Shown one piece after another: positions 45,687 to 61,871 of a stretch of 64,000 nt of DNA. A model generated the notes under the pieces. That model made no database searches, had not been told where the DNA came from, and saw only the letters and a list, made by a program, of their open reading frames with translations. Each line of letters begins with the position of its first letter. Position 1 is the stretch's first letter. The DNA is from Arenibacter sp. ARW7G5Y1 (lineage in GTDB: Bacteria; Bacteroidota; Bacteroidia; Flavobacteriales; Flavobacteriaceae), in assembly GCF_003201775.1 (NCBI RefSeq), contig NZ_QJJZ01000010.1:129899-193898 (forward strand), written 5' to 3'. The translations under genes and the position numbers were made by a program.

Positions 45687-47948
45687 ATGAAAACGAGTAA
45701 AGAATTCCTGTACACAGTTACAACGATATTATTTTGGATGACGTTCTTACCGGCCCAAAACAAAATGGAAGTTGATTATGTTAATCCACTAATAGGAACC
45801 CCATCAGCTGGTTTTATGGAAGGTAGGGATGGCGGTGGCACCATGCCCTGTGTAGGAACCCCTTTTGCCATGACGAATTTTGTGGCCCAGACACGGGAAA
45901 ATAAGATCAGCGAAATGCCCTATGTCTATGAAGACAATACCATACAAGGATTTATGGCCACTCACCAGCCAACGGTTTGGATGGGCGATTATGGCTACGT
46001 ATCCGTAATGCCACAAGTTGGGAAATTAAAGCTACTTCCCAAAGACCGGGCCATGCCCTTTAGCCATAAGGATGAACTATCCAAACCCAATTATTACAGC
46101 GTTTCCATGGGGGATAAGGGGCAAAAAATTAAAGGGGAAATAGCGGCTGCATCCCGCTGCGGCATTTTTCAATTCACCTTTCCCAAGTCCGATGAATCCC
46201 ATATCGTTATCCAGGGCATTAATATTACCGAGAACAAAAAGGCGTTTCACGGCTATATCCAAATAGATGAAAACAAAAGGGAAATTACCGGTTACAACCC
46301 GGAACGGATGTCTTCCCATTTGGGCCCTGAACTCAAAAATTTTAAGGGATATTTCATAATTCAATTTGACAAATCCTTCGAGCGATACGGAACTTGGAAT
46401 TCATTTAGGACGGAGCCCGATATTACAGAAATGGGCAAAGAGCAGACCGGTGCCAGAATGGGCGGTTACATAAGTTTTAAAACGGAGAAAAATGAAAAGG
46501 TAAAAGTTAAAATTGCCACTTCCTTTATAAGCCTGGAACAGGCCCGAGAAAACCTATCCAAGGAAATACCGGATTGGGACTTTAATAAAGTAGTGGAAAA
46601 TACCCGGGATATTTGGCAAGAAAATTTATCCAGAATTCAGGTAAACGGAGCAACGGAAGATCAAAAAAGTATTTTCTACACTGCCTTGTTCCACACCATG
46701 TTGTTTCCCAGGGAGTTTTCAGAATACGGACGCTATTACAGTCCGTTCGACGACAAGGTCCATGAAGGGGTTTCGTATAACGACTACTCCCTCTGGGATA
46801 CTTTTAGGGCCCTGCATCCGCTTCTACATTTTACAAATCCCGAACGGGTAAGCCCCATGATACAATCCTTATTACAAATGTACCAAGAGGGAGGATGGCT
46901 TCCAAAATGGCCTAATCCCACTTATACCAACATCATGACCGGGACCCATGCAGACGCTGTAATTGCAGATGCCTATATAAAGGGCTTTAGGGATTACGAC
47001 CTTGATCTGGCATATGAAGCCGTCAGAAAAAATGCCATGCACCCACCCTATAGGGACACGGAAAAGCCTTGGGGAGATCGGGATGAAGGTACTTTATATG
47101 AAGCAAGGGGCGGACTCACCTATTACCACTCCCTGGGATATGTTGCGGCAGATAAAACGCGGGAATCCGTAACACGGACCATTGAATTTGGCATAGATGA
47201 TTACAGCATTGCCCAAATGGCAATGGATATGGGTAAAACGGAAGATTATGAGCGATTAATGGGGTGGAGCAAAAACTACAAAAACCTTTATAATAAAGAG
47301 ACTGGCTTTCTAAATGCGCGACTATATAATGGCGATTGGGACAAAAACGTACAGGAAGGTTTTACCGAAGGGGGCCGATGGACTTATTTATTTGGTGCTA
47401 TGCACGATATTGAAGGAAGTATTGAACTCTTTGGGGGAAAGGAGAAATATGCCGCTAAATTAAATGAAAATTTTGATGGACTACATTACCGTCATGATAA
47501 TGAGCCGGGGCATCATTACGCCTACTTGTTCAATTATGCAGGGCAGCCATGGAAGACCCAGGAGCTTATCCGCAAGCATACCTCAACCATCAATTATAGA
47601 AATCACCCTCTAGGGATCAACGGTAATGATGATTGTGGGCAAATGTCAGCCTGGTATGTTTTTGGAGTTATGGGATTTTATCCGGTTACTCCCGGAACGG
47701 AAATATTTGCCATTGGGGCACCTCAATTTCCAGAATTCAAGCTTAGCCTACAAAAGAACGGAGAACCAAAATCTTTTAGGATCATAGCAAAAAACCTGTC
47801 CGAGGAGAATATGTACATTCAATCATTAAAATTGGATGGAAAGGTATTGGATGAACCCTTTATTACCTATACCCAAATAATGAATGGCGATGTCCTTGAA
47901 TTTGAAATGGGAAAAAGCCCCAATACCACTGCCTTCAAAAACAATTAG
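45687..47948 (+). CDS. GH92 alpha-mannosidase, exported
   Basis: This 753-residue protein has a signal peptide (LFWMTFLPAQ). GH92 enzymes are calcium-dependent exo-alpha-mannosidases acting on N-glycans and mannans. Visible family blocks: VDYVNPLIGT at the start, YNDYSLWDTFRALHPL, GGWLPKWPNPTYTNIMTGTHAD, GHHYAYLFNYAGQPWKTQ and GNDDCGQMSAWYVFGVMGFY (near residue 645, holding the catalytic acids). The length is normal. No lipobox, so it is probably periplasmic, trimming imported oligosaccharides. It is divergent from susC and shares its operator with the TPR-AraC regulator. Confidence 0.95.
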   Translation: MKTSKEFLYTVTTILFWMTFLPAQNKMEVDYVNPLIGTPSAGFMEGRDGGGTMPCVGTPFAMTNFVAQTRENKISEMPYVYEDNTIQGFMATHQPTVWMGDYGYVSVMPQVGKLKLLPKDRAMPFSHKDELSKPNYYSVSMGDKGQKIKGEIAAASRCGIFQFTFPKSDESHIVIQGINITENKKAFHGYIQIDENKREITGYNPERMSSHLGPELKNFKGYFIIQFDKSFERYGTWNSFRTEPDITEMGKEQTGARMGGYISFKTEKNEKVKVKIATSFISLEQARENLSKEIPDWDFNKVVENTRDIWQENLSRIQVNGATEDQKSIFYTALFHTMLFPREFSEYGRYYSPFDDKVHEGVSYNDYSLWDTFRALHPLLHFTNPERVSPMIQSLLQMYQEGGWLPKWPNPTYTNIMTGTHADAVIADAYIKGFRDYDLDLAYEAVRKNAMHPPYRDTEKPWGDRDEGTLYEARGGLTYYHSLGYVAADKTRESVTRTIEFGIDDYSIAQMAMDMGKTEDYERLMGWSKNYKNLYNKETGFLNARLYNGDWDKNVQEGFTEGGRWTYLFGAMHDIEGSIELFGGKEKYAAKLNENFDGLHYRHDNEPGHHYAYLFNYAGQPWKTQELIRKHTSTINYRNHPLGINGNDDCGQMSAWYVFGVMGFYPVTPGTEIFAIGAPQFPEFKLSLQKNGEPKSFRIIAKNLSEENMYIQSLKLDGKVLDEPFITYTQIMNGDVLEFEMGKSPNTTAFKNN

Positions 47949-47999
47949 AATGGAGTGAAGTTAATTTGGGACCTTCTGAATGATTCCAAAATAGAATAA

Positions 48000-48030
48000 A
48001 CGGATGGATGAATTATTAAAATCCATCCGT
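48000..48030. terminator. Terminator between GH92 and the amidotransferase gene
   Basis: ACGGATGGAT (48000-48009) pairs perfectly with ATCCATCCGT (48021-48030) around an 11-nt loop. On the minus strand it is followed by a U-rich stretch, fitting termination of the ethanolamine-type operon; the plus strand has no U-run but the hairpin also closes the GH92 transcript. Confidence 0.7.
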
Positions 48031-48045
48031 GTATAAAGATTCTTA

Positions 48046-48846
48046 CTATTGTTTTCCTGCTATCAACTTTAACCAAGCCATTATTTCTTGGGTATGGAGT
48101 TGGTAATCGCTAATTTCGGGAGGAATTCCTTTCTGCTCCCTCAAGGATAAACAGAATTCCTGCACCTCCTCCAAAGAATTAAAAGCGTCACTTTTGACTA
48201 ATTTTTCGGCCAAAAATGAACCGATCAAAGCCATATCCGAGCTACTAAATTCAGGGTGGTACTGCACCCCAAAAAACGATCCTTTTTTATAATCAAATGT
48301 CATTGCCTGTACCTTGGAGTGGGCATTACCGGCCAAAATAAGGGCGTTTTCGGGCACTTTTGTTACTTCATCAAAGTGGATACACAGGGCTGAATACGTC
48401 CCCTTACGGTGGGAAGTCAACGGGTTTTGCCTTCCCAATGGTGTGAGGTCAATTGGCTTGGAAATACCAAACTCCAAACCGTTCTTACTTAACGCCACTT
48501 TGCCGCCAGCCACAACCGTGGCAACCTGCATCCCCCAACAACTACCATAAAACGGTACACCACTCTTAAAAACCTCCTCGGCAAAATTTAATTGTTGTTC
48601 AACATCAGGACTCTCATCCAAGACACTAAGGGAACTGCCTGTCCACAATACCCCATCATATTTTTTTATTTGTCCAGCTGTTGGCAATTCACTAGCCACA
48701 TCCGCCGGAAAGGCAAAATCTGTCTGCGCCTTTGGAACCAACCCCCCCAACATTTCTTGGAACATAAGATGATAAGGCTTTATTCCAAAAGCTCCCCTTT
48801 CCAGGCGTGTTTGTTCTTTATTGCCTTCTACTATTAATAATCTCAC
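48046..48846 (-). CDS. Class I glutamine amidotransferase-like hydrolase
   Basis: This 266-residue stand-alone class I amidotransferase has nucleophile Cys103 in GSCWGMQVA and the His-Glu pair in GVQYHPEFSS. It starts with GTG at 48846, 2 bp after the stop of the iron alcohol dehydrogenase, so it is translationally coupled. It has no synthetase domain fused or nearby except the glutamine-synthetase-like ligase of the same operon. Inference: it hydrolyses a gamma-glutamyl amide formed by that ligase, releasing glutamate and the product amine, as PuuD does for gamma-Glu-GABA; it is closer in sequence type to GMP-synthase-like GATases than to PuuD, so substrate is a prediction. Confidence 0.82.
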   Translation of the reverse strand: MRLLIVEGNKEQTRLERGAFGIKPYHLMFQEMLGGLVPKAQTDFAFPADVASELPTAGQIKKYDGVLWTGSSLSVLDESPDVEQQLNFAEEVFKSGVPFYGSCWGMQVATVVAGGKVALSKNGLEFGISKPIDLTPLGRQNPLTSHRKGTYSALCIHFDEVTKVPENALILAGNAHSKVQAMTFDYKKGSFFGVQYHPEFSSSDMALIGSFLAEKLVKSDAFNSLEEVQEFCLSLREQKGIPPEISDYQLHTQEIMAWLKLIAGKQ

Positions 48847-48848
48847 GC

Positions 48849-50021
48849 TTACAGTCCATTTAAATCTCCAGAGACAGCAGCCCTAAAAAGCTGCTCCAAA
48901 TCTTTTGCGTTAACCGGTTTTGCATTGGAAGGTGTTGATGGATCTTTAAAGGCCATTTCCCCAATTTCCTTGGCATTATCAGTATCAATATCAATTTCCT
49001 TTAATGTATGTGGAATATTCAATTCTTTTCGCAGAGCGATTATATAATCGATAATAGCATCGGTACCCGACTTTTCCAGTCCGAGAACTTTGCTTAAATG
49101 CACCATTTTATCCTCAATTGCCGTCTTATTCTGTTTTAAGGCATAGGGCAATATTATGGCATTGAGCAAACCGTGTTGTTTATTGTAAATGGCTCCCAAT
49201 TGATGGGCCACGGAATGCACCGAGCCCAATCCCTTTTGAAAGGCGGTTGCCCCCATAGAGGCCGCAACCAGCATTTGTCCCCGGGCCTCCAAGTTTTTTC
49301 CGTCTTTTACCGCCATTGGCAAATATTTGGCTATAATACGAATAGCTTCAATAGCTATCCCTTCGGCCATTGGATGATATCCAGGAGCACAATAAGCCTC
49401 AATAGCATGTACCATGGCATCCACTCCCGTCCAAGCGGTGATATGAGGAGGTAAACCCAAAGTCAATTCAGGATCGGATATCACAATTGCTGGTAACATC
49501 TTAGGGTGAAAAATAATTTTCTTGGTATGCAATTTTTCATCCAAAATCACCGATGCCCTACCTACTTCAGATCCAGTACCTGCCGTAGTAGGGACCGCAA
49601 TTATGGGTGCAATTCCGTCTAGGTCGGCATAACTCCAATTATCGCCCACATCTTCAAAATCCCAAAGCGATCTGGTCTGTCCGGACATAAATGCGATTGT
49701 CTTGGCCGCATCAATAGCGGAACCACCTCCAAAGGCTATAACCCCATCATGCTTATTTTTTTTAAAATGGGCCACGCCATCTACCACATTTTTTTCTGTA
49801 GGGTTTCCTTGTACATCACTGTATACCGTGAAATTTAGTCCGTCTGTTTTTAAAATGTTTACGGTATTTTCAACAATGTCCAATTTTACCAAGCCCTCGT
49901 CTGTAACAAATAAGGGGTTCTTTATTCCCAATTTTTTACATGCCTGTGAAATTTCATTTATTCTACCATTTCCAAACCAAATGGTGGTAGGATAATTCCA
50001 ATTTGTATTTGCTAACTGCAT
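48849..50021 (-). CDS. Iron-containing alcohol dehydrogenase
   Basis: This 390-residue group III alcohol dehydrogenase has the cofactor motif AFGGGSAIDAAKTIAF, the loop PTTAGTGSEVGRAS and metal-binding histidines in DAMVHAIEAYCAPGYHP and GSVHSVAHQLGAIYNKQHG. It is cytoplasmic and NAD(P)-dependent by family. In the operon it lies between the aldehyde dehydrogenase (40 bp upstream) and the amidotransferase (2 bp downstream). Inference: it oxidises the hydroxyl of a glutamylated amino alcohol (gamma-glutamylethanolamide) to the aldehyde, which the ALDH would take to the acid. Other short alcohols are possible. Confidence 0.9.
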   Translation of the reverse strand: MQLANTNWNYPTTIWFGNGRINEISQACKKLGIKNPLFVTDEGLVKLDIVENTVNILKTDGLNFTVYSDVQGNPTEKNVVDGVAHFKKNKHDGVIAFGGGSAIDAAKTIAFMSGQTRSLWDFEDVGDNWSYADLDGIAPIIAVPTTAGTGSEVGRASVILDEKLHTKKIIFHPKMLPAIVISDPELTLGLPPHITAWTGVDAMVHAIEAYCAPGYHPMAEGIAIEAIRIIAKYLPMAVKDGKNLEARGQMLVAASMGATAFQKGLGSVHSVAHQLGAIYNKQHGLLNAIILPYALKQNKTAIEDKMVHLSKVLGLEKSGTDAIIDYIIALRKELNIPHTLKEIDIDTDNAKEIGEMAFKDPSTPSNAKPVNAKDLEQLFRAAVSGDLNGL

Positions 50022-50061
50022 TAATTCTTATTTTTTAAATTCAATAAATTGATCTATAGTT

Positions 50062-51447
50062 TTATTTGCCTTTTCGAAAATTAAACGACTTCACCCGTGT
50101 TACATGGTCGTAGCCAATTCTCGAGAGGGTAACGCCCTTGCCCGAATTTTTTACCCCTGTCCATGCCAGAGCCGGATCCAAATAATCGCAGCGGTTCATG
50201 AACACGGTTCCGGTTTCAATTCTCCTTCCCAAATCAATGGCCCTATCCATGTCCTTGCCCCATATGGAAGCGGTTAGTCCGTATTGGGAATCGTTCATAA
50301 GCCTCAAGGCTTCCTCATCGTTCTTTACTTTCATTATTCCAACTACAGGTCCAAAACTCTCCTCGCTCATTACATCCATACTATGATCCACATTGACCAA
50401 CACATGCGGAGATAAATACGGGGTATCTTTTTTGGAAGCTGCGAATAGGGATTCCGACACCAAAGACTTGGCCCCCTTGCCCAATGCCTGCTCTATTTGC
50501 TTTCTTACGTAATTGGCGGCATCAGTCTTCACCATGGGTCCCAAATTGGTCCCCGTATCCAAAGGATTTCCCAATTTGTATTGCTTTGTTAAGGCTACAA
50601 ATCCATCAATAAACTTATCGTACAAAGCCTCATGGACATAAATTCTTTCTATACCACAACAGGATTGACCACTATTAAAGAACGCCCCATCCACCAAATT
50701 TTCCACACTATTCTCCAAATTGGCATCGGCCATTACATAGGCAGGATCCTTCCCTCCCAGTTCCAGTCCACAGGGAATAAATTTATTGGTCAAAGAATTT
50801 TGAACGGCTATTCCTCCTTGTACCGATCCCGTAAAGTACACACCGTCTATCCGGCTATCGGCAATTAATTGGGCCGTATTTTTATGGTTTAAGTGGAGTA
50901 TTTGAAAAACGCCCTTCGGAAGTCCGGCCTTGGCAGCTGCCTTCGCGTATCGCTCCGCCACCAGAGGCGTTTGAAAGGAATGCTTTAAAACAACCACGTT
51001 TCCTGCCATTAAAGCGGGAACAATAGCATTTACAGAGGTCAGGAAGGGATAGTTCCAAGGACTCAGCACACTCACTACGCCAACGGGAACACGTTCTACC
51101 CACCTTTTATCCGGATTGGCACTATCCTCTACTTTATAGTCGGTTAAAGCCTCTTCGGCTACACCGATCATATAATGGGCACGGTCTGCAAACCCTTTTA
51201 TCTCGCCTGGGGATTGACCCAAAGGCCTACCCATTTGCCAGGTAATTTCGAGGGCTATGTCATTTATATCATGGACAATGGCTTCTACGAATGATGTAAT
51301 ATACTTTGCTCGTTCTGCAATAGTTAAATCGGACCACGCTGAAAAAGCACTTTGGGCCTTGCTTAAGGCCTGCTCAATATCCTTGGGGCCATGTTCTTCG
51401 GCTGTATAATAAATAGTGCCGTCTATAGGTGATATGGTATTTATCAT
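50062..51447 (-). CDS. NAD(P)-dependent aldehyde dehydrogenase
   Basis: This 461-residue ALDH has the general base in GLELGGKDPAYV, nucleophile Cys in FFNSGQSCCGIERIYVH and the cofactor sequence VVVLKHSFQTPLVA. It starts 3 bp after the glutamine-synthetase-like gene, so the two are tightly coupled. It resembles PuuC/succinate-semialdehyde-type enzymes of polyamine breakdown. Inference: it oxidises the aldehyde made by the iron alcohol dehydrogenase, giving gamma-glutamylglycine if the substrate is ethanolamine. Confidence 0.9.
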   Translation of the reverse strand: MINTISPIDGTIYYTAEEHGPKDIEQALSKAQSAFSAWSDLTIAERAKYITSFVEAIVHDINDIALEITWQMGRPLGQSPGEIKGFADRAHYMIGVAEEALTDYKVEDSANPDKRWVERVPVGVVSVLSPWNYPFLTSVNAIVPALMAGNVVVLKHSFQTPLVAERYAKAAAKAGLPKGVFQILHLNHKNTAQLIADSRIDGVYFTGSVQGGIAVQNSLTNKFIPCGLELGGKDPAYVMADANLENSVENLVDGAFFNSGQSCCGIERIYVHEALYDKFIDGFVALTKQYKLGNPLDTGTNLGPMVKTDAANYVRKQIEQALGKGAKSLVSESLFAASKKDTPYLSPHVLVNVDHSMDVMSEESFGPVVGIMKVKNDEEALRLMNDSQYGLTASIWGKDMDRAIDLGRRIETGTVFMNRCDYLDPALAWTGVKNSGKGVTLSRIGYDHVTRVKSFNFRKGK

Positions 51448-51450
51448 TTC

Positions 51451-52827
51451 TTATATTATTTCAAAATAGCGTTGTAATTGCCAGTCTGTTATGGCTCCAA
51501 GTTGTTGTTGATCCTCCCATAGTCGCGTATAGGCATAATGATCCACAAATATATCACCAAACAAGTCTCGTGCAATTTTTGAATTCTTAAATTTCTCGGC
51601 AGCATGGGATAAGGTCCTGGGCAACTGAAGTTCCTGGGAAAAATCTACATCATAGGCATTGCCGGCCACAGCTTTGGTGGGTTCAATTTTATTCTCTATA
51701 CCCCATAATCCAGAGCCAATAGCGGCTGCAAGGGCCAAATAGGGATTAATATCGGCTGCCGAAACCCTGTATTCCACCCTTTGTGATTTTTCCGATCCCG
51801 GGATGGCCCTAAGTGCACAGGTTCTATTGTCCATGCCCCATGAGGCTGCCGTAGGGGCCCAAAAACCTGGAATGAGTCTTGTATAACTATTACAAGTAGA
51901 AGCAACCATGGCCAGTAATTCGGGCATTAATTTTTGTTGCCCTCCTAGAAACCACCGCATAACGTCTGACATTCCATGCTCCTTGCCTTTGTCGTAAAAA
52001 GCCGAAGAACCATCCTTATTTTGTAATGAAATATGGATATGTCCGGATTGTCCTGGATAACTGGAAGACCATTTGGCCATAAATGAGGCCATTAGACTAC
52101 GCTGCTGGGCCCATACCTTTACAAAGTTTTTAAACAAAGCTCCATTATCGGCAGCCCTTAATGCCTCGGAATACTCAAGGGCCCCTTCGAGCACTCCGGC
52201 CCCGGTTTCGGTATGCAAACCTTCCAAAGGCATTCCCATTTCTTGGGAAAGCTCCATTATTTCGTGATAAAAACTGGCATGGGTAGAGCTTCGCAATATG
52301 GAATATCCAAAATTACCCGGCGTCATAGGTTCCAAATTATGATAGTTCTTATCGCGAATAGATTTAGGCGTTTCATTGAATAGAAAAAATTCGAATTCAA
52401 AAGATGCACTTGCCTTGTAGCCAATATTCCCCAATCTATCCAATGTTTTGCGCAGAATAGATCTGGGACAAACACTGGAAGCGCTACTCTCGGAAAAATC
52501 AACTAAAAATATTACGGATTTATAGTCTTCCGTAGGCAACATTCTCATACTTGAAGCATCTATAGTAGCGTTGGCATCCGTAAAACCATCTGCCCAACCC
52601 GTAAAGGAATCGTTCTTATATAAAACATCGTTGGAATCCCAACCAAAAATAACACTGCAAAATCCGAATCCCTTATCGAGGGCGGATAGGAATTTTTTGG
52701 AATTCACATATTTCCCTCGGAGCACCCCATCAACGTCGACCACGGCCAGCTTTATATTTTCAATTTGATGTTCGTTAATATAACTTCTGACCGATTCAGG
52801 TGTAATTTTAGAATCTTCCTTTTTCAT
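51451..52827 (-). CDS. Glutamine synthetase family gamma-glutamyl amide ligase (PuuA/GlnA4-like)
   Basis: This 458-residue protein has the GS fold: N-terminal IKLAVVDVDGVLRGKYV, catalytic EFEFFLFN, ATP segment SGHIHISLQNKDG, FWAPTAASWGMDNRTCALRAI and RVEYRVSAADINPYLALAAA. The N-terminal beta-grasp shows VDVDGVLRGK, typical of GS-III-like and PuuA-type ligases rather than of GlnA. Gene neighbours (permease, ALDH, alcohol dehydrogenase, amidotransferase) match catabolic glutamylation of an amine, not ammonia assimilation. Relatives are PuuA (gamma-glutamylputrescine) and Streptomyces GlnA4 (gamma-glutamylethanolamide). Given the ethanolamine-type permease, ethanolamine is the favoured substrate; other small amines remain possible. 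Confidence 0.87.
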   Translation of the reverse strand: MKKEDSKITPESVRSYINEHQIENIKLAVVDVDGVLRGKYVNSKKFLSALDKGFGFCSVIFGWDSNDVLYKNDSFTGWADGFTDANATIDASSMRMLPTEDYKSVIFLVDFSESSASSVCPRSILRKTLDRLGNIGYKASASFEFEFFLFNETPKSIRDKNYHNLEPMTPGNFGYSILRSSTHASFYHEIMELSQEMGMPLEGLHTETGAGVLEGALEYSEALRAADNGALFKNFVKVWAQQRSLMASFMAKWSSSYPGQSGHIHISLQNKDGSSAFYDKGKEHGMSDVMRWFLGGQQKLMPELLAMVASTCNSYTRLIPGFWAPTAASWGMDNRTCALRAIPGSEKSQRVEYRVSAADINPYLALAAAIGSGLWGIENKIEPTKAVAGNAYDVDFSQELQLPRTLSHAAEKFKNSKIARDLFGDIFVDHYAYTRLWEDQQQLGAITDWQLQRYFEII

Positions 52828-53059
52828 AGGTTTATTTTATTTTTTTCAATGGGTCCTATGACAGCTACGTCATGGACAGTTTGGTTTAACTTAACTTTAT
52901 TATGGTCGATTTTTCAACTTTTGTTCCAATGTCCTGTTTCAAAATACAGCAATTTTCACATAATGGGCATGTTGACAAAACCATGTTTCAAACCCACACA
53001 TACTGACAAGGGCAGCTTCCATAAAAATATAGATTTATGCCCAGCTAAAACTATAAAAT

Positions 53060-54550
53060 CTAGTTTTTTCCCTGTGCTTTTTTAAGGTCGTGCTCCAAGG
53101 CAAATTCTTCCTCTGGGGAGAGGATTAATCGGTGTCTCCCTTTAAGTCCAAAGTATAACAACCCTATTAACAAATAGCCCATAGAAATAAAAACTGCAGT
53201 TCTATAGGATTGGTCCTGTAACTGAAAATATATAATTACACTGGCCAGAAAAATGGTGACCCAGGCACCTGGCTTCCCAAAAGGACTAACATAGGGCCTT
53301 TCCAGATCGGGTTTATGTTTCCTCAACAATAAAAAGGAACCGCACTGTAGAATATAGGACAACATGGCGCTAAAAACAGCAATGTTCAACAAGGCCCCAC
53401 CAATAAAGACCTCACTTTGGTTTCCAGCCAAAAGTTTGGTGATCATTAAAACCGTAAAACCAATTACTGACCCCAAAATTAAAGCGGTATAAGGTGTTTT
53501 TCTTTTACTGTGCGTAAGGGACAGCAAAACAGGAAAATAACCTGCCCTTGACAAGGAATAGATTTGTCTGCCGAAGGCAAAAATAATGGTATGGAATGAT
53601 GCCAATAGACCAATGGAAGCTACCAAGGCCAAAAGCTTGGCTATATTATCCCCAAACAAAACCTTAAATCCGTCCAATAAGGGTTCTCCAGATTGCGAAA
53701 GGGCATAGGATCCCAAAGGTATTGAAGCATTTAGCCATAGGATTAAAAAAGCCGAAATGATCAAGGTAATAATCCCATAGGTGAGACCTTTGGGCATATC
53801 TTTCTTGGGATCAACGGATTCTTCAGCAGCCAAGGGCAATTGTTCAATGGCCAAGAACAGCCATACAGCAAAGGGCATCGCTTTGAGGGCTCCTTCCCAA
53901 CCCAATGGGAAAAGGGAGCCTCCCCCTCCTGGCAAATGTTCGGCAGTACCATCGGCACCAGCCTTTATATCCAACGCATAGGTAGTAAAATCGGCACTAC
54001 CAATGCTCGACACCCAAAAAATACCCAAACATCCCAATGCCAAAAAAGTAAGTGTAACGGTAAATTTAAAGGATAACTCTACTCCAACAATATTCAACAA
54101 GGTAAAGACGGTATAAAATCCGAACCACCAAAAAGGCAACAATTCCGGTGCCGTTTCAAAGATTCCCTGCATATAATTACTAAGAAAAAAAACGATTACG
54201 GCCGGGGTGAGTATAAATTCCAAATTCTCGACCAGGCCAGTAAAAAAACCGCCCCAAGGACCCATGGCCGATCTGGCAAAAGAATAGGCACCACCGGTAT
54301 GCGGCAGGGCCGGAGACATTTCTGCAACGCTCTGTGTAAGTCCAATGTACATTACGGCTACAATACAGGTAGCAACGAACATTCCTCCCCATCCCCCTGA
54401 TGCCAAGCCCAGGTTCCATCCGGAAAAATGCCCCGATATCACGGCCCCTACACCCAAAGCCCATAAGGACCAAACACCGGCATGGCGTTTAAGTTCACGG
54501 GATTCAAAATAGGATTTGTCCATTTTCTTGTACTTAACGCCTTTGCTCAT
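53060..54550 (-). CDS. APC-superfamily permease, ethanolamine-type
   Basis: This 496-residue inner-membrane protein has about twelve helices. The block ALGVGAVISGHFSGWNLGLA and AEMSPALPHTGGAYSFARSA and GPWGGFFTGLVENLEFILTPA closely follows the ethanolamine permease family (EAT) in motif spacing, more than other amino-acid permeases. It is the first gene of the degradative unit, 232 bp upstream of the GS-like ligase; no other gene lies in that gap. Inference: proton-coupled ethanolamine import feeding glutamylation. An amino-acid substrate cannot be excluded. Confidence 0.88.
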   Translation of the reverse strand: MSKGVKYKKMDKSYFESRELKRHAGVWSLWALGVGAVISGHFSGWNLGLASGGWGGMFVATCIVAVMYIGLTQSVAEMSPALPHTGGAYSFARSAMGPWGGFFTGLVENLEFILTPAVIVFFLSNYMQGIFETAPELLPFWWFGFYTVFTLLNIVGVELSFKFTVTLTFLALGCLGIFWVSSIGSADFTTYALDIKAGADGTAEHLPGGGGSLFPLGWEGALKAMPFAVWLFLAIEQLPLAAEESVDPKKDMPKGLTYGIITLIISAFLILWLNASIPLGSYALSQSGEPLLDGFKVLFGDNIAKLLALVASIGLLASFHTIIFAFGRQIYSLSRAGYFPVLLSLTHSKRKTPYTALILGSVIGFTVLMITKLLAGNQSEVFIGGALLNIAVFSAMLSYILQCGSFLLLRKHKPDLERPYVSPFGKPGAWVTIFLASVIIYFQLQDQSYRTAVFISMGYLLIGLLYFGLKGRHRLILSPEEEFALEHDLKKAQGKN

Positions 54551-54665
54551 AGCTCTTCTCTTGGTTTAGGTTTGATTATGTATTTCCAACTTAGGTAACT
54601 AATATACCATGAAATAAAAAAAATATCACCCTTTAAACTTGAAGGATTCATATTATTAATAAAAA

Positions 54666-54691
54666 GACCATGGGGAAGAATCCCCATGGTC
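54666..54691 (-). terminator. Intrinsic terminator after the STN-SusC/SusD operon
   Basis: GACCATGGGGA (54666-54676) and TCCCCATGGTC (54681-54691) form a perfect 11-bp stem with an AGAA loop. On the minus strand it is followed by UUUUU, 38 bp past the susD stop, and it separates this operon from the permease gene. Confidence 0.9.
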
Positions 54692-54728
54692 CGTAAGATT
54701 CACAGTACTTATCTTATTGATTTCACAT

Positions 54729-56309
54729 TTAATTATTACTGGCCACATCCCACCACAGTCTGGTGTTTAAGTCGTCTCCTCCCATACGGGTAACGGCCTG
54801 CTGATAATTGGCATTATTTGTTGATTTCACCGAATTGGGATACTGAAACCTTACGGGTACCTTTTTATCATTTACGGCATCCGGACCAGGTATTACTTCT
54901 GGCATTCCGGTACGCCTCCAATCGGACCAAGCTTCAAAACCTGTATAAAAGAGGGCTATCCATTTTTGTAAGGCCACTTTTTCCAGCTTTTCAGCGGCTG
55001 TACCTGTATAGGCCACTGTAGTCTGGGCAATATACGCATCCAGGTCAAAGGCTTGTAGGTCGGCAGCGATCTCGTTCCATCCACCGGCAACGATCCTATC
55101 CAAATAGTACGAAAAGGAGGCTCGGATACCATTTTCATAGTAAGTGGCGGCATCGCCAACGGTTATAAAATTTCTTTCCCTTGCCTCGGCCAGGATAAAC
55201 TGGAGCTCTGAATAGTCCATTATAATGGTTTGGGAAGCGGTTGGTGAAGCAAGTTCCACATTACAGGCCCTACAGGCCATTAGAATTCCTATTCTAGAGA
55301 TGAAGTTGGATCCCACCTCATCGGGGTTTCCAGTAGGGCTATACCCTAAGGCGGCCTCATCATCCAAGCCATTCGGCATGCCTACATAATCATCCAGATT
55401 ATCAGAATAGATCCCTTTTCCGGAATTGGAAGTGGGTTGGGCAAAAACGATAAGCCTTCTATCATTTAGGTCCTTTAGCCTGGTTTCCAAGGTAAGGCTC
55501 AACCTAACCTCATCAAAACTACCAGATCGGGTATCGTATTTGGGTTGGGGGTTATCGGAATTCCATTGCAACAGGGCGGCATCCCCATTACTTTCAAATA
55601 TGGGATAGGTTGTAGGGTCGCCCATAATCTCGGACATACCGGCTATGGCCTTGGCTTGGTCCACATCACTGATCCTCATTAAGAGACGAAGCCTTAGCGA
55701 GTTGGCAAACTTCCTCCATTTAAGTACATCCCCACCGTATAATATATCCCCTGATATATTTTGTGTACCTGTCAATGCGGTATTGGCAGCCTTCAGGTCG
55801 GCCAAAAGACCGTCGTATATTTCCTGCTGGGGCGTAAATTCGGGTGTAATATCATCATCGCTTATTCCCTTTACAGCATCCATGTAGGGAACATCCCCAT
55901 AGGAATCCGTTAAATAGGAATAAATCCATGACTTAACGATCAAGCCTACGCCGTAATAGTTTTGGCGATCCGGATTCTCTTGGGTATCACGAACAATATT
56001 CATGATATCACGCAGCCCGTCATAGGCATCGTTATAAGGATCGCTAGTTGGGGACCATTGGTAGATATCCCCAGAAGTAAATTGTAATCGTGCTCCATAT
56101 TGAACGACCGTAAAGCCTTCCTCCCATCCTTGGTTTCCCCAATTATAGGCCATCTGTCTTAAAACCCCGGGCAAAAGCAGTTCCGAGGAAGCCTGCTCCG
56201 GAAAGTTGGGATTTTGATTTATTTCTTCAAAGTCTTCCGTACAACCCATAAAAGCTGCCAAAAGAAACATCATGAAAAAACCCTTTTTTGTTATATGTAT
56301 GTTTTTCAT
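54729..56309 (-). CDS. SusD-like_2 family outer-membrane lipoprotein
   Basis: The 526-residue protein has a lipobox (LAAFMGCTEDFEE, Cys23) and the SusD-like_2 start TEDFEEINQNPNFPEQ, differing from the RagB type of the other two SusDs. Later segments SYLTDSYGDVPYMDAVKG, KWRKFANSLRLRLLMRIS and GFEAWSDWRRTGMPEV are typical. It follows its STN-type SusC by 11 bp. This subfamily is often paired with receptors under ECF-sigma/FecR control, as here, and its ligands are not always sugars (peptides and other organics are reported), so the substrate is not predicted. Confidence 0.93.
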   Translation of the reverse strand: MKNIHITKKGFFMMFLLAAFMGCTEDFEEINQNPNFPEQASSELLLPGVLRQMAYNWGNQGWEEGFTVVQYGARLQFTSGDIYQWSPTSDPYNDAYDGLRDIMNIVRDTQENPDRQNYYGVGLIVKSWIYSYLTDSYGDVPYMDAVKGISDDDITPEFTPQQEIYDGLLADLKAANTALTGTQNISGDILYGGDVLKWRKFANSLRLRLLMRISDVDQAKAIAGMSEIMGDPTTYPIFESNGDAALLQWNSDNPQPKYDTRSGSFDEVRLSLTLETRLKDLNDRRLIVFAQPTSNSGKGIYSDNLDDYVGMPNGLDDEAALGYSPTGNPDEVGSNFISRIGILMACRACNVELASPTASQTIIMDYSELQFILAEARERNFITVGDAATYYENGIRASFSYYLDRIVAGGWNEIAADLQAFDLDAYIAQTTVAYTGTAAEKLEKVALQKWIALFYTGFEAWSDWRRTGMPEVIPGPDAVNDKKVPVRFQYPNSVKSTNNANYQQAVTRMGGDDLNTRLWWDVASNN

Positions 56310-56320
56310 CTTTTATGCTA

Positions 56321-59300
56321 TTAAAAATCGATTTGTAAATTTAGCGTATATGTTCTGGTGCTGGGATAGGACATATTCTCTATACCGGGCTGCAGGGTAC
56401 CACCAGCAACCGATACCGTTTCCGGATCAAAATGGGGGTTGTCCGTCCATAGTGCCAAATTCCTGCCTGTCAAGGACAATCTTGCCTTACTGATAGGAAG
56501 CTTGTCTATAATTTTATTGGAAAGGCTATAGCCCAATGTAACCTCGCGCAATTTGGTATAGGAAGCATCGTATTTGGCCGCCTCTACATTATCCCGCTCA
56601 TAGTAACGGTTATTATAGGTTCTAACATCCACGTTTATTGTGTTGGGTGTATATACCCCTGGGGATGTCTCCAAAACCCCTTCAGCAACAATTCCTGTTT
56701 CCCTTCCTTCCAAGGTCTCTTTTAATTGCCCGGAAGTGGAACCTATGGTTTTGGTCCTGGACACTACGATTCCTCCCTGTCTAATATCGAACATAAATCC
56801 AAAATCCACGGACTTATATTTGAAGCTATTAAGTATCCCCAAGGTATAATCCGGGGCATAATCACCTTGGTACACCAAATCGTCCGTCCTAATGGGGATA
56901 CCACTGTTATTTACGATCATTTGACCATAATACTCACTGTTCTCATCTTCTACACGTTGAAATCCCCGTCCGTAAATAGCACTAATGGAGCCGCCTTCCC
57001 TAGCTTGGATAAAAACGCTGTTCCTTTCGGTAAGCGTATAATCTATACCCCCCAGATCGGTAACCTCACTCCTATTCCTTGAATAGTTGAACATGGCATT
57101 CCAACTGAAATTCTCAGTCCTAACGGGCACAACGTTCAACATGGCCTCAAAACCATAATTCCTTACTTCTCCCGCGTTGATCAACTTACTGGTATATCCA
57201 CTGGAGATATCCGTACTTATGGGTATGATCTGATTTTTGGTACGCCCATCATAATAGGTGGCATCCAAATTAAGCCTACTTTGAAACAAGCGGATATCGG
57301 CACCAATCTCATAAGATGATGTAATCTCCGGTTTCAAATTGGCATTGGGGATCAAGGAGGATTCCGTTAAAATTGGGTTATCCCCAAAAGGTGTTTCGTT
57401 GGTAAAGAAACTGGACAACTTATAGGGGTCCGTATCATTACCTACCTCGGCATAGGCCGCCCTTAATTTTGCAAAAGAGACAAAATCGGGCATTTTAAAC
57501 ATATCACTAGCTATGGCACTTAAAGTAACCGAAGGATAGAAATAGGAATTATTATCGGTAGGTAGGGTACTGGACCAATCGTTACGGCCAGTTACATCCA
57601 AAAAAAGTAAATTATCATAGGCGAACCTGGCAAAACCATAGAGACTGTTGATTCTCTTCTGTTCATTGTTGGTATATACCTCCAACGGTCTCCTCGTATT
57701 ATTAAAGGAATATACGCCAGGGTTGATCAACTGGGGGGCAACGGTCTGGGTGTACTCCTGCTTCTGACGAAATTGATTTCCACCGGCCGATATATTCAGG
57801 TTCCACTTTTCATTAAAGGTTTTATCATAAGATAATAGGAAATCTGTATTGGATTCCTCAAAGAACACATTGTCTTCCCTATAATAACCTAGAGGGAAGC
57901 GCTGGGTACTAAACGCTCTTTTTTTGGTCCTGAGATCGCGATAAAAATCCCTTCCGGTCCTTACCATTAAGTTCCAATTATCATTGATCTCGTAATTGGC
58001 ACTAATATTCCCGTATACCCTGTCCTTGTTCTGTGAATTGGTATTCTCATACACGTTGAAGAAAGGGTTGTCATGATAATTGTAATTATAGTTGAACTGT
58101 TGCAGGTCTTCCCTACCAGGCATCCAATAATCCCTCATACTGTTGGTGTTCAATTGCCTACCGTACCAAATAAAGAGATACATGATACTTTCCGTACCAT
58201 AGCTTAGGGAAGGTCTATTGTCACTGTCGGATTTTACATAATTTACATTGGTATTGATCGTTAATTTGTCGGTCAGGTTTAGACCTGTATTCAAATTAAA
58301 AGTATTTCGCCTAAGGTCTGTATTGGGTACTATGCCCTCTTGGTCCAAATTTTGGTAGGAGAACCTTATATTGCCAAGGTCCCCGGATTTGGAAATGGCT
58401 ATACTATTGGTCTTGGTGTACCCTGTATTAAAGAAGTCCATGGTATTGTCCGGCATGGACACCCATGGTGTTGGGGTAATTGGCGAATCGCTCACTAGAT
58501 AGTCCCCTCCTCTTGTTCCATCCGCCCTGGGGGAATCAAACTGTGGGATCATCAGTCCGGTATCCAACCTAGGGCCCCAACTTTCGTCAACACCATCGGC
58601 GATACCGCTTCCACTTCCATCGACAAATGCAAACTGTTGGTTGTTGCCTTGACCGTATTCGTTTTGCCAATCGGGCAATAACAAAACACTTTCCATGGTT
58701 ATACCGGAATTAACGGAAACTCCCAATTGACCTTTTTTGCTATTCCCTTTCTTGGTCGTTATAATAATGGCCCCGTTTGCCGCCCTAGCTCCGTACAAAG
58801 CCGCTGCAGCCGGTCCTTTTAGAACGTTTATGGATTCTATATTCTCTGGGTTTATTTCCGAAGCCCCATTTCCATAATCCACATCCTGTGTTCCAGAACC
58901 ACTGGACCCTACAATTTCATTGCTAATAGGAGTACCATCCACAATGAACAAAGGGGAATTCCCATTAATGTTCAGCGAGGCATCGCCCCGTATGGATACT
59001 CTGGCAGAACCTCCCAATCCGGAAGGGCTGTTGGTAATCTGTAGACCGGCCACCTTTCCAGAAATGCCATTTAAAAGATTGGGTTCCCTAGCCCCGGATA
59101 CCTGATCGCCATCGAGCTCCTGGGATGCATATCCTAGGGATTTCTTTTCCCTCTTAATGCCCAAGGCAGTTACTACCACTTCACTTAAACCCGTAGCACT
59201 CTCTTCCAAAGTAATAGAGACATTGGTCTGCCCATTTAGTGCAATTTCTTTGTTGGTAAACCCTATATAGGAAACCACTAAAGAGGCGTTTGGCCCATTT

Positions 59301-59842
59301 ACATCCAAGGAGAAATTACCGTCAAAATCGGACTGGGTACCATTGGTTGTTCCCTTTTCCAATACATTGGCTCCAGGCAAGGGACTACCATCACTGTCCA
59401 AAATAGTACCATTTACCTTAAAAGGCTGGTTCAAATCCACCTTTTTTTCTTCCTCTTTACTGGTGGAAGGGATATTTTTTTCAGGCTTGAGTACAATTTG
59501 TTTATCCAATACCTGATAGGCTATGTCCATATTGGAAAACATTCTATCACGAATTTTGGTAACCAATTCTTTATTAGCCTTCACAGAGACAATCTTTTTA
59601 TAATCCACCTCCTTATCATTATACATGAATTTGAATTCTGTAAGCGACTCAATTCTGTTCAACACACTTTCAATACTTACATTTTCGAGGTTCAAGGTAA
59701 CCTTGGCCTTTTGACCATAAGTTTCGTTTGCATGAATTTGAAAAAGCGAAACGACAAGTAACAGTGAGGTAGTAAGTTTCATTTTCAAATCATATTGTAG
59801 CCGAAAACGGGATTTCCTCCCCGGCTTGATCAGGTTTTTCAT
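56321..59842 (-). CDS. SusC-type TonB-dependent receptor with N-terminal STN domain
   Basis: From the ATG at 59842 (MKNLIKPGRKSRFR) it has 1173 residues; a GTG at 59881 would add 13. After the signal (MKLTTSLLLVVSLFQIHA) comes an STN secretin/TonB domain (VTLNLENVSIESVLNRIE), then a carboxypeptidase-like domain (VNGTILDSDGSPLPGANV), plug (VVVTALGIKREKKSLGYA; LYGARAANGAIIITTKKG) and barrel ending LNLQIDF. The STN domain talks to FecR (60015-61157): ligand binding is signalled to the periplasmic FecR, releasing the sigma factor (61221-61871) to activate the system. The conserved TonB-linked architecture and length are normal. Confidence 0.95.
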   Translation of the reverse strand: MKNLIKPGRKSRFRLQYDLKMKLTTSLLLVVSLFQIHANETYGQKAKVTLNLENVSIESVLNRIESLTEFKFMYNDKEVDYKKIVSVKANKELVTKIRDRMFSNMDIAYQVLDKQIVLKPEKNIPSTSKEEEKKVDLNQPFKVNGTILDSDGSPLPGANVLEKGTTNGTQSDFDGNFSLDVNGPNASLVVSYIGFTNKEIALNGQTNVSITLEESATGLSEVVVTALGIKREKKSLGYASQELDGDQVSGAREPNLLNGISGKVAGLQITNSPSGLGGSARVSIRGDASLNINGNSPLFIVDGTPISNEIVGSSGSGTQDVDYGNGASEINPENIESINVLKGPAAAALYGARAANGAIIITTKKGNSKKGQLGVSVNSGITMESVLLLPDWQNEYGQGNNQQFAFVDGSGSGIADGVDESWGPRLDTGLMIPQFDSPRADGTRGGDYLVSDSPITPTPWVSMPDNTMDFFNTGYTKTNSIAISKSGDLGNIRFSYQNLDQEGIVPNTDLRRNTFNLNTGLNLTDKLTINTNVNYVKSDSDNRPSLSYGTESIMYLFIWYGRQLNTNSMRDYWMPGREDLQQFNYNYNYHDNPFFNVYENTNSQNKDRVYGNISANYEINDNWNLMVRTGRDFYRDLRTKKRAFSTQRFPLGYYREDNVFFEESNTDFLLSYDKTFNEKWNLNISAGGNQFRQKQEYTQTVAPQLINPGVYSFNNTRRPLEVYTNNEQKRINSLYGFARFAYDNLLFLDVTGRNDWSSTLPTDNNSYFYPSVTLSAIASDMFKMPDFVSFAKLRAAYAEVGNDTDPYKLSSFFTNETPFGDNPILTESSLIPNANLKPEITSSYEIGADIRLFQSRLNLDATYYDGRTKNQIIPISTDISSGYTSKLINAGEVRNYGFEAMLNVVPVRTENFSWNAMFNYSRNRSEVTDLGGIDYTLTERNSVFIQAREGGSISAIYGRGFQRVEDENSEYYGQMIVNNSGIPIRTDDLVYQGDYAPDYTLGILNSFKYKSVDFGFMFDIRQGGIVVSRTKTIGSTSGQLKETLEGRETGIVAEGVLETSPGVYTPNTINVDVRTYNNRYYERDNVEAAKYDASYTKLREVTLGYSLSNKIIDKLPISKARLSLTGRNLALWTDNPHFDPETVSVAGGTLQPGIENMSYPSTRTYTLNLQIDF

Positions 59843-59887
59843 ATTTTTGTAATGTTTTACGTGGTTAATTAATTTAATCACAGCTTA

Positions 59888-59913
59888 TCGGGAAGTGTTG
59901 GCGCACTTTCCGA
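59888..59913 (+). terminator. Terminator-shaped hairpin in the STN-susC leader (plus-strand U-run)
   Basis: TCGGGAAGTG (59888-59897) and CACTTTCCGA (59904-59913) pair with one mismatch around 6 nt, and a run of nine T follows on the plus strand. No plus-strand gene reads into it, so it may stop antisense transcripts or act as a structured 5' end of the susC mRNA. Confidence 0.45.
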
Positions 59914-60014
59914 TTTTTTTTTGCCTTTACACCTTGTAGTTAAAGTGTCCGAAAAAAAATTGTGATCTGTTTAAATTTTGAAAAGTCTAATTCATTGGCA
60001 GTTGGTTTGTTTTG

Positions 60015-61157
60015 TTAGTTGATAATTATTTGTCTGTTGTTGATTTTATAATCCATTTCGTAGGTGATATTGAACGTTTTAAATACTTGATCTATAGTTT
60101 CAACATCAAAACTTGCCGTAAACAATTCTTCATTGAGTTCAAGGTTATTGTTCACTATCTCTACATTATAATGCCGCTCCAATTTTTTTACAATGTTCTT
60201 AAAGGGCACATGTCTCAAAATAATTTTTCCATTAAGCCAATCGGTGTGCATAGCTACATCCGCTTCTTCCACCAAAATTTGATTATTGTATTTGTTCCAT
60301 TCAGCTTTAAATCCAGGTTCCAATAAAGAAGCATTGGCAGAATCAAAAGTGTCCTTTTTATTATAAACTGAAACCGACCCCTCCAAAAGGGTCGTATTGA
60401 CAAATTGATCTTCCGGATAGGAGGATAAATTAAATTTTGTCCCAAGCACACGTACATTAAGCTGGTTTGTATTTACTATAAATGCATTTACCGAGTCCTT
60501 GGTAACATTAAAAAATGCTTCCCCATCCAGAAAAACCTGTCTGTTCATCGCTTTTAAAAAATGTACTGGATATTTAAGGGATGTTCCGGAGTTAAGGGTT
60601 ACCTGCGTACCATCGGAAAGCAATAAATCAAATCTTTTGCCATAAGGTACGGTGAGGGTATTATAAACCAATTCCTCTGTGAAACCACTATTGTTTTTAT
60701 AGACCAATTGGGATCCTTGCTGTGCTCCTACCAAATTTCCTTCGGAATCCACAACTTTGGCCTTACCATTTTCCGAAATAACCTCTACGGTTCCATCATC
60801 CAATTGCAAGGTAATGGCATCCTCGGAAATTATTGGGGCAGAAGTGGAATCGATAATATTGTCCTTAAAAATATAGGTTACCCCTACAAGAAGTGAAAGA
60901 ACAGCGGCGGATTTCAATATTGCCACTGGAATGCGACGTTTATTTTTGGGGCTAGGATTTTGGGTCTTGACAATACCGTGGTAGGAAGCATCCAAATCCC
61001 CATCCACATCATCCATGGTGGATGCCATATATTCGGCTTTGGCCTCAAAGTATCTTTTGGTATTTTGATCGGAAGAAACAATCCAATCCTGAACTTCCTT
61101 TTCCTCCTTTGAAGTAGCAGTACCCCTTAAGTATTTAGATATTTTTTGATCTAGCAT
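60015..61157 (-). CDS. FecR-family anti-sigma/signal-transducing protein
   Basis: This 380-residue protein has a cytoplasmic N-terminus (SKEEKEVQDWIVSSDQNTKR) that would bind the sigma factor, a transmembrane helix at about residues 79-97 (ILKSAAVLSLLVGVTYIF) and periplasmic FecR domain segments (GEAFFNVTKD, FIVNTNQLNVRVLGTKFNLS, DWLNGKIILRHVPFKNIVKKL). It lies between the sigma gene (63 bp upstream) and the STN-SusC. The layout is the standard Bacteroidota three-protein trans-envelope signalling unit. Confidence 0.94.
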   Translation of the reverse strand: MLDQKISKYLRGTATSKEEKEVQDWIVSSDQNTKRYFEAKAEYMASTMDDVDGDLDASYHGIVKTQNPSPKNKRRIPVAILKSAAVLSLLVGVTYIFKDNIIDSTSAPIISEDAITLQLDDGTVEVISENGKAKVVDSEGNLVGAQQGSQLVYKNNSGFTEELVYNTLTVPYGKRFDLLLSDGTQVTLNSGTSLKYPVHFLKAMNRQVFLDGEAFFNVTKDSVNAFIVNTNQLNVRVLGTKFNLSSYPEDQFVNTTLLEGSVSVYNKKDTFDSANASLLEPGFKAEWNKYNNQILVEEADVAMHTDWLNGKIILRHVPFKNIVKKLERHYNVEIVNNNLELNEELFTASFDVETIDQVFKTFNITYEMDYKINNRQIIIN

Positions 61158-61220
61158 CTTCCTGTGTTCTATTAAAAAGACGACTCAAAAAAGACTTACA
61201 CCTAGTGCTGGATCATAATT

Positions 61221-61871
61221 TTATTGGGAAACAGAGATAAATTCCCTTAAATGAAGCCTCATATGCCTAAGGGCACTGGCTATATGGCTATCTACCGTTT
61301 TGTGTGAAATGCCCATCTGCTCTGCTATTTCACTATGCCTTAAACCTTCTAGTCGGCTCTTTTTAAAAATATTTTTACATTTTTTCGGCAACAAATCTAT
61401 GCTCTGTACAATTTTGCTTTCCAATTCATTTTCAAGTAACAGGGAGGCAGTTTCATCCTGAATAAAATTATATTGGATTTCAGATTTTATGCGATAACTA
61501 TTATCTATATAATTCCTTTTAACCCTTTCGTGCTTCAATTGGTCCAGGCACAAATTTTTGGTCATGGTATATAAGTAACCATTAATATTGGTCACTTCGC
61601 CCAAAGATTCTTTATTTTCCCATATTTTAAGGAATACGTTCTGTACTATACTTTCGGCTTCCTGTTGGTAGAGTAGATAGCCTTTTGCAATTTGCACCAG
61701 TTTTTTATAGTAGAGTCTGAACAAGGTCTCAAAAGCATATTTCTCTCCCTTTTCCAAAAGGGAAAGAAAAAGCTCATTGTTGATATTAGGCTGGCCTTTT
61801 TTCAACTTATTTGTGGGTTTTAATATTCGGATATTCGGCTGTATCAAATTACCAATTCGGAAAGCATCCAC
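61221..61871 (-). CDS. ECF-type RNA polymerase sigma factor
   Basis: This 216-residue sigma-70 family protein has region 2 (AFETLFRLYYKKLVQIAKGYL, QNVFLKIWENKE) and region 4 (LPKKCKNIFKKSRLEGLRHSEIAEQMGISHKTVDSHIA) of the Bacteroidota ECF group. It opens the operon with FecR and STN-SusC. The start is uncertain: the open frame begins at a GTG (61871) with no in-frame ATG upstream before the stop, and the first about 30 residues look non-conserved, so initiation further in, at a TTG or other codon, is possible. Confidence 0.92.
   Translation of the reverse strand: MDAFRIGNLIQPNIRILKPTNKLKKGQPNINNELFLSLLEKGEKYAFETLFRLYYKKLVQIAKGYLLYQQEAESIVQNVFLKIWENKESLGEVTNINGYLYTMTKNLCLDQLKHERVKRNYIDNSYRIKSEIQYNFIQDETASLLLENELESKIVQSIDLLPKKCKNIFKKSRLEGLRHSEIAEQMGISHKTVDSHIASALRHMRLHLREFISVSQ

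Follow-up and report, generated by a model that had tools for sequence, protein, structure and literature searches.

The window analyzed here, a 64,000-nucleotide stretch of contig NZ_QJJZ01000010.1 from Arenibacter sp. ARW7G5Y1, contains a five-gene unit that we discuss as a candidate operon for ethanolamine breakdown. In gene order, it encodes a permease, a glutamine synthetase (GS)-like ligase, an aldehyde dehydrogenase (ALDH), an iron alcohol dehydrogenase (Fe-ADH), and a class I glutamine amidotransferase-like (GATase) hydrolase (Table 1), with intergenic gaps of 232, 3, 40, and 2 bp. A first-pass annotation had described the same five open reading frames (ORFs), with gaps of only 2 to 40 bp from the ligase onward, and both points held, all five being found where it placed them with matching domains. 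In the NCBIfam listings, which for the ALDH cover 25 of 44 families, none of the five proteins reached a cut-off.

Table 1. Genes of the five-gene unit and the gap behind the permease gene, in window coordinates.
Feature	Position	Strand	Length	Proposed role	Family match
Eat-like APC permease	53060-54550	minus	496 aa	ethanolamine importer	TIGR00908 (best NCBIfam match)
Gap between permease and ligase	52828-53059	minus	232 bp		no Rfam match
GS-like gamma-glutamyl ligase	51451-52827	minus	458 aa	glutamate-ethanolamine ligase	PF00120
ALDH	50062-51447	minus	461 aa	gamma-glutamylacetaldehyde dehydrogenase	PF00171
Fe-ADH	48849-50021	minus	390 aa	gamma-glutamylethanolamide dehydrogenase	PF00465/PF25137
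GATase-like hydrolase (GTG start)	48046-48846	minus	266 aa	gamma-glutamylglycine hydrolase	PF00117, weaker PF07722

We consider it quite probable, judging from sequence for the substrate and for every reaction, that this operon serves ethanolamine catabolism by gamma-glutamylation. A ligase, an Fe-ADH, an ALDH, and a gamma-glutamyl hydrolase together would fit the chemistry of a primary amino alcohol. The Eat-like permease would import ethanolamine, and the ligase would couple its amine to the gamma-carboxyl group of glutamate at the expense of ATP. The Fe-ADH would then oxidize the alcohol of gamma-glutamylethanolamide to an aldehyde, the ALDH would oxidize this to gamma-glutamylglycine, and the GATase-like hydrolase would cleave the product to glycine, regaining glutamate. 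Glycine may finally enter the glycine cleavage system; the host genome encodes the glycine decarboxylase GDC-P.

GlnA4 of Streptomyces coelicolor makes gamma-glutamylethanolamide, and the discussion in that work proposes the aldehyde, gamma-glutamylglycine, and then glycine plus glutamate as the following products (PMC6529630). Enzyme roles in Chromohalobacter salexigens have been given to proteins of PF00120, PF00465, PF00171, and PF05013 (PMC9397018). In Phaeobacter MED193 on phosphorylethanolamine, the ligase, two dehydrogenases, amidohydrolase, and tripartite ATP-independent periplasmic (TRAP) transporter binding protein of one operon are raised; the binding protein binds ethanolamine with a Kd of 7.9 uM, and the operon's genes are close relatives of genes with demonstrated function in C. 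salexigens and Agrobacterium (PMC10132767). The ethanolamine-to-glycine route of the first-pass annotation is the best reading of the locus, given the shared dehydrogenases, the EutBC-type Eat permeases that stand in for the window's permease in related operons, and the absence of EutB described below, but the pathway is already in print. The proposed route is probably right and its chemistry is known; the window's version would differ in the lineage of its ligase, in its importer, and in its hydrolase. What is new here is the comparative evidence of shared dehydrogenases beside a divergent ligase.

The four enzyme roles proposed for the window match those of the Phaeobacter and Chromohalobacter operon (in Phaeobacter: RpiR, amidohydrolase, TRAP EtoVWX, ligase, ALDH, and Fe-ADH). 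The ligase belongs to a different lineage, however, an APC permease replaces the TRAP transporter, a class I GATase-like hydrolase replaces the annotated N-formylglutamate amidohydrolase, and RpiR is missing from the five genes. The S. coelicolor GlnA4 cluster (SCO1610-1615), which could be compared by description only, resembles the window in having a ligase without GlnA's D50 and E327, an ALDH, and a "glutamine amidotransferase," and its counterparts elsewhere in the streptomycetes include a putative ethanolamine permease; it differs in naming a short-chain dehydrogenase where the window has an Fe-ADH (PMC6529630). For Bacteroidota, no report of a gamma-glutamylation pathway appeared among the literature matches listed, subscription papers being mostly beyond reach. 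Flavobacterium is listed among ethanolamine users, in a passage that gives no mechanism (PMC6529630, PMC9397018); the available text of these two papers nowhere contains "Bacteroid," nor does the available main text of PMC10132767 contain "Bacteroidetes" or "Flavobacteri."

Both dehydrogenases appear equipped for catalysis. The ALDH has its catalytic residues C263 and E229, and the Fe-ADH has D201, H205, H269, and H283, which we take to be metal ligands by analogy with FucO. The hydrolase has the catalytic residues C103/H197/E199, and its solved relatives, mostly GMP synthetases, include a gamma-glutamyl peptidase 1. Plasmid records of Ruegeria B32 (L210) and Paracoccus denitrificans (L211) resemble the Phaeobacter operon, carrying RpiR, an N-formylglutamate amidohydrolase, three TRAP genes, and then ligase, ALDH, and Fe-ADH in the same order as the window, while a Sinorhizobium meliloti record (L212) has an amino acid permease in place of TRAP; the window hydrolase differs from the amidohydrolase annotated in all three. 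The window ALDH is 49.8-51.0% identical to the ALDHs of these operons, and its Fe-ADH is 49.1-51.2% identical to theirs. Paralogs in its own genome are 23-31% identical for the ALDH and 22% for the only one found for the Fe-ADH.

An ALDH tree of 47 rows places the Ruegeria, Paracoccus, and Sinorhizobium proteins, together with one from Mesorhizobium (L229), inside the window-type family, beside ALDHs from operons with window-type ligases. Constraining the published-type ALDHs to lie outside that family gave a p-AU of 0.018, a value that is optimistic because the test was chosen after the first ALDH tree had been seen. The first ALDH and alcohol dehydrogenase trees, which included own-genome paralogs, had very long outgroup branches; the ALDH placement alone was retested, with two outgroup rows still long. 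The claim of nesting draws on the ALDH tree and not on the alcohol dehydrogenase tree, in which one outgroup row is very long. Since the dehydrogenases are about 50% identical while the ligase, at 31-34%, sits on a separate branch, it seems that ligases of two lineages serve a single dehydrogenase pair. The simplest reading of these sequences is that the dehydrogenases were retained while the ligase was exchanged, in which case both ligases should supply the same intermediate.

The partnership of such Fe-ADHs with GS-like genes recurs on plasmids. In a plasmid collection, 1903 records match the window Fe-ADH; of the 40 that were listed, 31 share 48% identity or more with it and nine share 42.2% or less. 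A GS-like gene lies within about 4 kb in 28 of these 31: within about 3 kb by coordinates in 25, about 4 kb upstream in two opened Shinella records, and, in one further Shinella record, by coordinates. Several records are near-copies, four of them from P. denitrificans. Of the 31, 29 were checked, and the one without such a gene, a Mesorhizobium record, carries an amidohydrolase, ALDH, and Fe-ADH with no annotated ligase nearby. The two opened Shinella plasmids (L227:540-7143 and L228:544-7143) combine a GS-like gene and a PotD-type ATP-binding cassette (ABC) transporter with an Fe-ADH that shares 50-51% identity with that of the window; neither an ALDH nor a hydrolase is annotated in between.

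Aligned with GlnA, the window ligase departs at the ammonia site, with K71 for D50 (in a gappy loop, the least sure of the three), F173 for Y179, and W323 for E327. Of the other positions checked, it keeps the six for metal, the two for nucleotide, and four of five for glutamate contact. Ammonia-site changes are also reported for GlnA4 and PauA7 (PMC6529630, section 12). The conserved metal and nucleotide positions would be equally at home in a spare or assimilatory glutamine synthetase whose neighbors are unrelated to it. We regard this as extremely improbable, given the changed ammonia site, a separate type III GS in the host genome, presumably its housekeeping enzyme, and a gene set conserved across Bacteroidota and Proteobacteria. 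A ligase search of the host genome matched only the ligase itself.

Alternatively, the ligase, ALDH, and hydrolase might act as in putrescine breakdown, on a polyamine or diamine, with the Fe-ADH otherwise engaged. The E. coli Puu pathway shares the logic of gamma-glutamylation, oxidation of an aldehyde by an ALDH, and hydrolysis; PuuA belongs to the same ligase superfamily, and some relatives of the window ligase adjoin polyamine-type ABC transporters. However, the five genes include an Fe-ADH, for which that route has no place, instead of a PuuB-type amine oxidase, the ligase scores 203 bits against the gamma-glutamylputrescine synthetase model NF045547 (cut-off 650), and the ALDH is only 31% identical to PuuC, all of which makes a Puu-like route very unlikely. 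The first-pass annotation had assigned the ligase to the PuuA/GlnA4 sort. It is indeed GS-like, but against the ligases compared here that match was too close: it is 29% identical to PuuA and 30.6-34.3% identical to the Csal_0679-type ligases of the Ruegeria, Paracoccus, and Sinorhizobium operons, and forms a lineage of its own. The Sinorhizobium ligase, for its part, is 63-67% identical to those of Ruegeria and Paracoccus.

A midpoint-rooted ligase tree of 58 rows, with SH-aLRT support only, agrees with this placement. The Ruegeria, Paracoccus, Sinorhizobium, and 5dm3 ligases, together with that of Thermomicrobium, stand on a long branch, with every window-related ligase outside it, so that the window ligase does not fall into the cluster around Csal_0679 (5dm3); the program warned of long branches meeting at the Csal_0679-type group and IpuC. 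Among the Bacteroidota ligases, those of window type group with those of Halieaceae and Campylobacterales inside a proteobacterial set, apart from the others, which suggests that this lineage was transferred between phyla. On the Thermomicrobium roseum plasmid (L206:3758-7509), a ligase 49-52% identical to Csal_0679-type ligases lies side by side with genes annotated as glucose 1-dehydrogenase and eat, a trio that recalls the short-chain dehydrogenase-bearing cluster of Streptomyces.

The first-pass annotation had called for a survey of gene order across Bacteroidota, and the gene set does recur there, in two arrangements. Arrangement A has the window's permease, ligase, ALDH, Fe-ADH, and GATase; arrangement B has an Eat of the EutBC type, ligase, Fe-ADH, a PF07722 hydrolase, and ALDH, the hydrolase being PuuD-like and assigned to PF07722 by Pfam at two loci and by similarity at the rest. 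In a sample of 397 genomes from the family, which we took to be Flavobacteriaceae, the ligase was found in 24 (E <= 1e-100), and 23 of these, including the host, hold all five functions (7 A, 16 B). All 23 family loci besides the window's own were opened, yielding six A with the same genes in the same order, 16 B, and one that was neither. Fe-ADH matches at E <= 1e-60 occur in 31 of the 397 genomes: seven at 77-100% identity (the A loci), 16 at 36-42% (the B loci), and eight at 36-40% in genomes outside the ligase-bearing 24. In the phylum sample, the ligase was found in 41 of 395 genomes; of the 40 others, 37 loci were opened and seven are arrangement B, bringing this five-function form to 23 Bacteroidota loci.

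Among named genomes, the best 80 of 541 relatives were scanned. The nearest is Arenibacter aquaticus (Flavobacteriaceae), with a ligase 85% identical to the window's; tblastn finds the ligase in all 80, and all five functions are present in ten (three Bacteroidota and seven Proteobacteria). In the 62 loci with at least 5 kb downstream, an ALDH was seen in 51, an Fe-ADH in 49, both in 47, and a GATase in 26, with a window-type permease directly upstream of the ligase in 16, an N-formylglutamate amidohydrolase-like gene in nine, an EutBC-type Eat in three, and EutB in none. Because the five genes recur in the same order at six family loci and the five functions in another order at 16, and all five occur in ten of these 80 relatives, the set is not a product of chance.

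The company that these ligases keep also bears on the substrate. The permease of arrangement B is 43-48% identical to an Azospirillum Eat adjoining EutBC, and at two proteobacterial loci (L078 and L129) a ligase, ALDH, Fe-ADH, and GATase are followed by an Eat 74-76% identical to that protein, the best single pointer to ethanolamine. The window permease itself shares 38% identity with a Vibrio Eat and 35% with the Azospirillum Eat, each encoded beside EutBC. The same chemistry could instead start from a different primary amino alcohol. With 3-aminopropanol or 2-aminopropan-1-ol (alaninol), for example, the product would be gamma-glutamyl-beta-alanine or gamma-glutamylalanine, from which the free amino acid would be released. 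We found no characterized member of the window ligase lineage, the permease falls below the Eat cut-off, and a gene annotated ipuC, whose product is 38% identical to the window ligase, illustrates that related ligases are named for other amines. Ethanolamine, by contrast, is by far the commonest natural amino alcohol, the dehydrogenases are akin to those of published-type ethanolamine operons, and an EutBC-type Eat occurs in the same operon type, so a different amino alcohol seems unlikely.

The route would share with the EutBC pathway its proposed substrate and an Eat-type permease. It has no lyase and would therefore involve neither a B12 step nor acetaldehyde. The window had been noted to encode neither EutB nor EutC, an observation that now extends, for EutB, well beyond it: the PF06751 profile finds none in the whole host genome (46 contigs, 5.73 Mb, completeness rated 100%), with a positive E. 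coli control, and none in any of the 30 genomes tested, seven of which carry arrangement A and 23 arrangement B. EutC was not seen at any of the 62 neighborhood loci, where it served as a reference in the neighborhood scan, no dedicated EutC search having been made.

Several observations weigh against ethanolamine catabolism as the role of the operon. At GlnA's glutamate contact N264, the ligase has P258, and it is not close to any comparable ligase with reported ethanolamine activity, GlnA4 lying outside the comparison. The permease scores 349.3 bits (E 3e-104) against TIGR00908, the ethanolamine permease model, below the cut-off of 381.75; this is by far the best of its 18 NCBIfam matches. 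Its nearest plasmid relatives (49-60% identical), where annotated, are called "amino acid permease," and around the four that were opened no GS or Eut gene is annotated. The hydrolase is only 25% identical to the Legionella GATase. Four of the 62 named loci lack any main partner and 15 lack ALDH, Fe-ADH, or both, and close ligase relatives also stand beside polyamine-type ABC transporters and aminotransferases. A Campylobacterales metagenome-assembled genome (MAG; L072) has no hydrolase in the 4.3 kb seen, and a deep-sea Bacteroidetes MAG (L064) has only permease, ligase, and GATase.

On balance, we lean towards a broader proposal, in which the window-type ligase would represent a second lineage of ethanolamine gamma-glutamylases and the pathway would be modular. 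One Fe-ADH/ALDH pair may thus combine with exchangeable ligases (window type or Csal_0679 type), importers (TRAP, Eat, or Eat-like APC), and gamma-glutamyl hydrolases (PF00117, PF07722, or N-formylglutamate amidohydrolase type), and two separately assembled forms may replace EutBC in the window's family. Ethanolamine from phospholipid headgroups is a marine source of nitrogen and carbon, and its use has been tracked through etoX, a TRAP gene with about 94% alphaproteobacterial hits (PMC10132767). If the ethanolamine reading of the operon is right, flavobacteria share this resource by a permease-fed, lyase-free route that surveys based on EutBC or EtoX would overlook. The pairing of these dehydrogenases with a ligase from a second lineage also offers a clear test of how the same substrate preference came about twice within the glutamine synthetase superfamily.

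The window-type ligase alone was rejected as a marker for the pathway. At 30 of the 37 opened phylum loci, a related ligase (43-49% identical) occurs with no recognized partner within 6.5 kb, the partners scored being ALDH, Fe-ADH, GATase, Eat, and PF07722. These loci (L167, L171-L175, L177-L179, and L181-L201; e.g., L182:6008-7902 and L172:9467-11391) have a conserved unit of their own, in which, by length and order, two ORFs follow the GS-like gene, the first of about 340-375 aa and the second of about 280-330 aa. Two of the first ORFs were scanned, neither with an NCBIfam match and one also without a Pfam match; both of the second ORFs scanned are HAD-IIA phosphatases.

An Rfam scan of 47900-54800 found no RNA element. 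The Bacteroidota promoter motif TTTG-N(17-23)-TANNTTTG gave six matches against 4.2 expected by chance, and the sole coding-strand match to it within the five-gene unit falls inside the ligase gene, so we propose no promoter on this basis. Elsewhere in the window, Pfam gave no match at E 0.001 for a 712-aa protein encoded at 21523-23661, adjoining a SusD gene. The strand that carries the permease gene also holds, upstream of it, a SusC-like gene, an extracytoplasmic function (ECF) sigma factor gene, and a FecR-type gene (56321-61871), and a GH92 gene on the opposite strand adjoins the amidotransferase gene. These flanking genes are probably outside the unit, because the neighbors differ at the opened loci of relatives.

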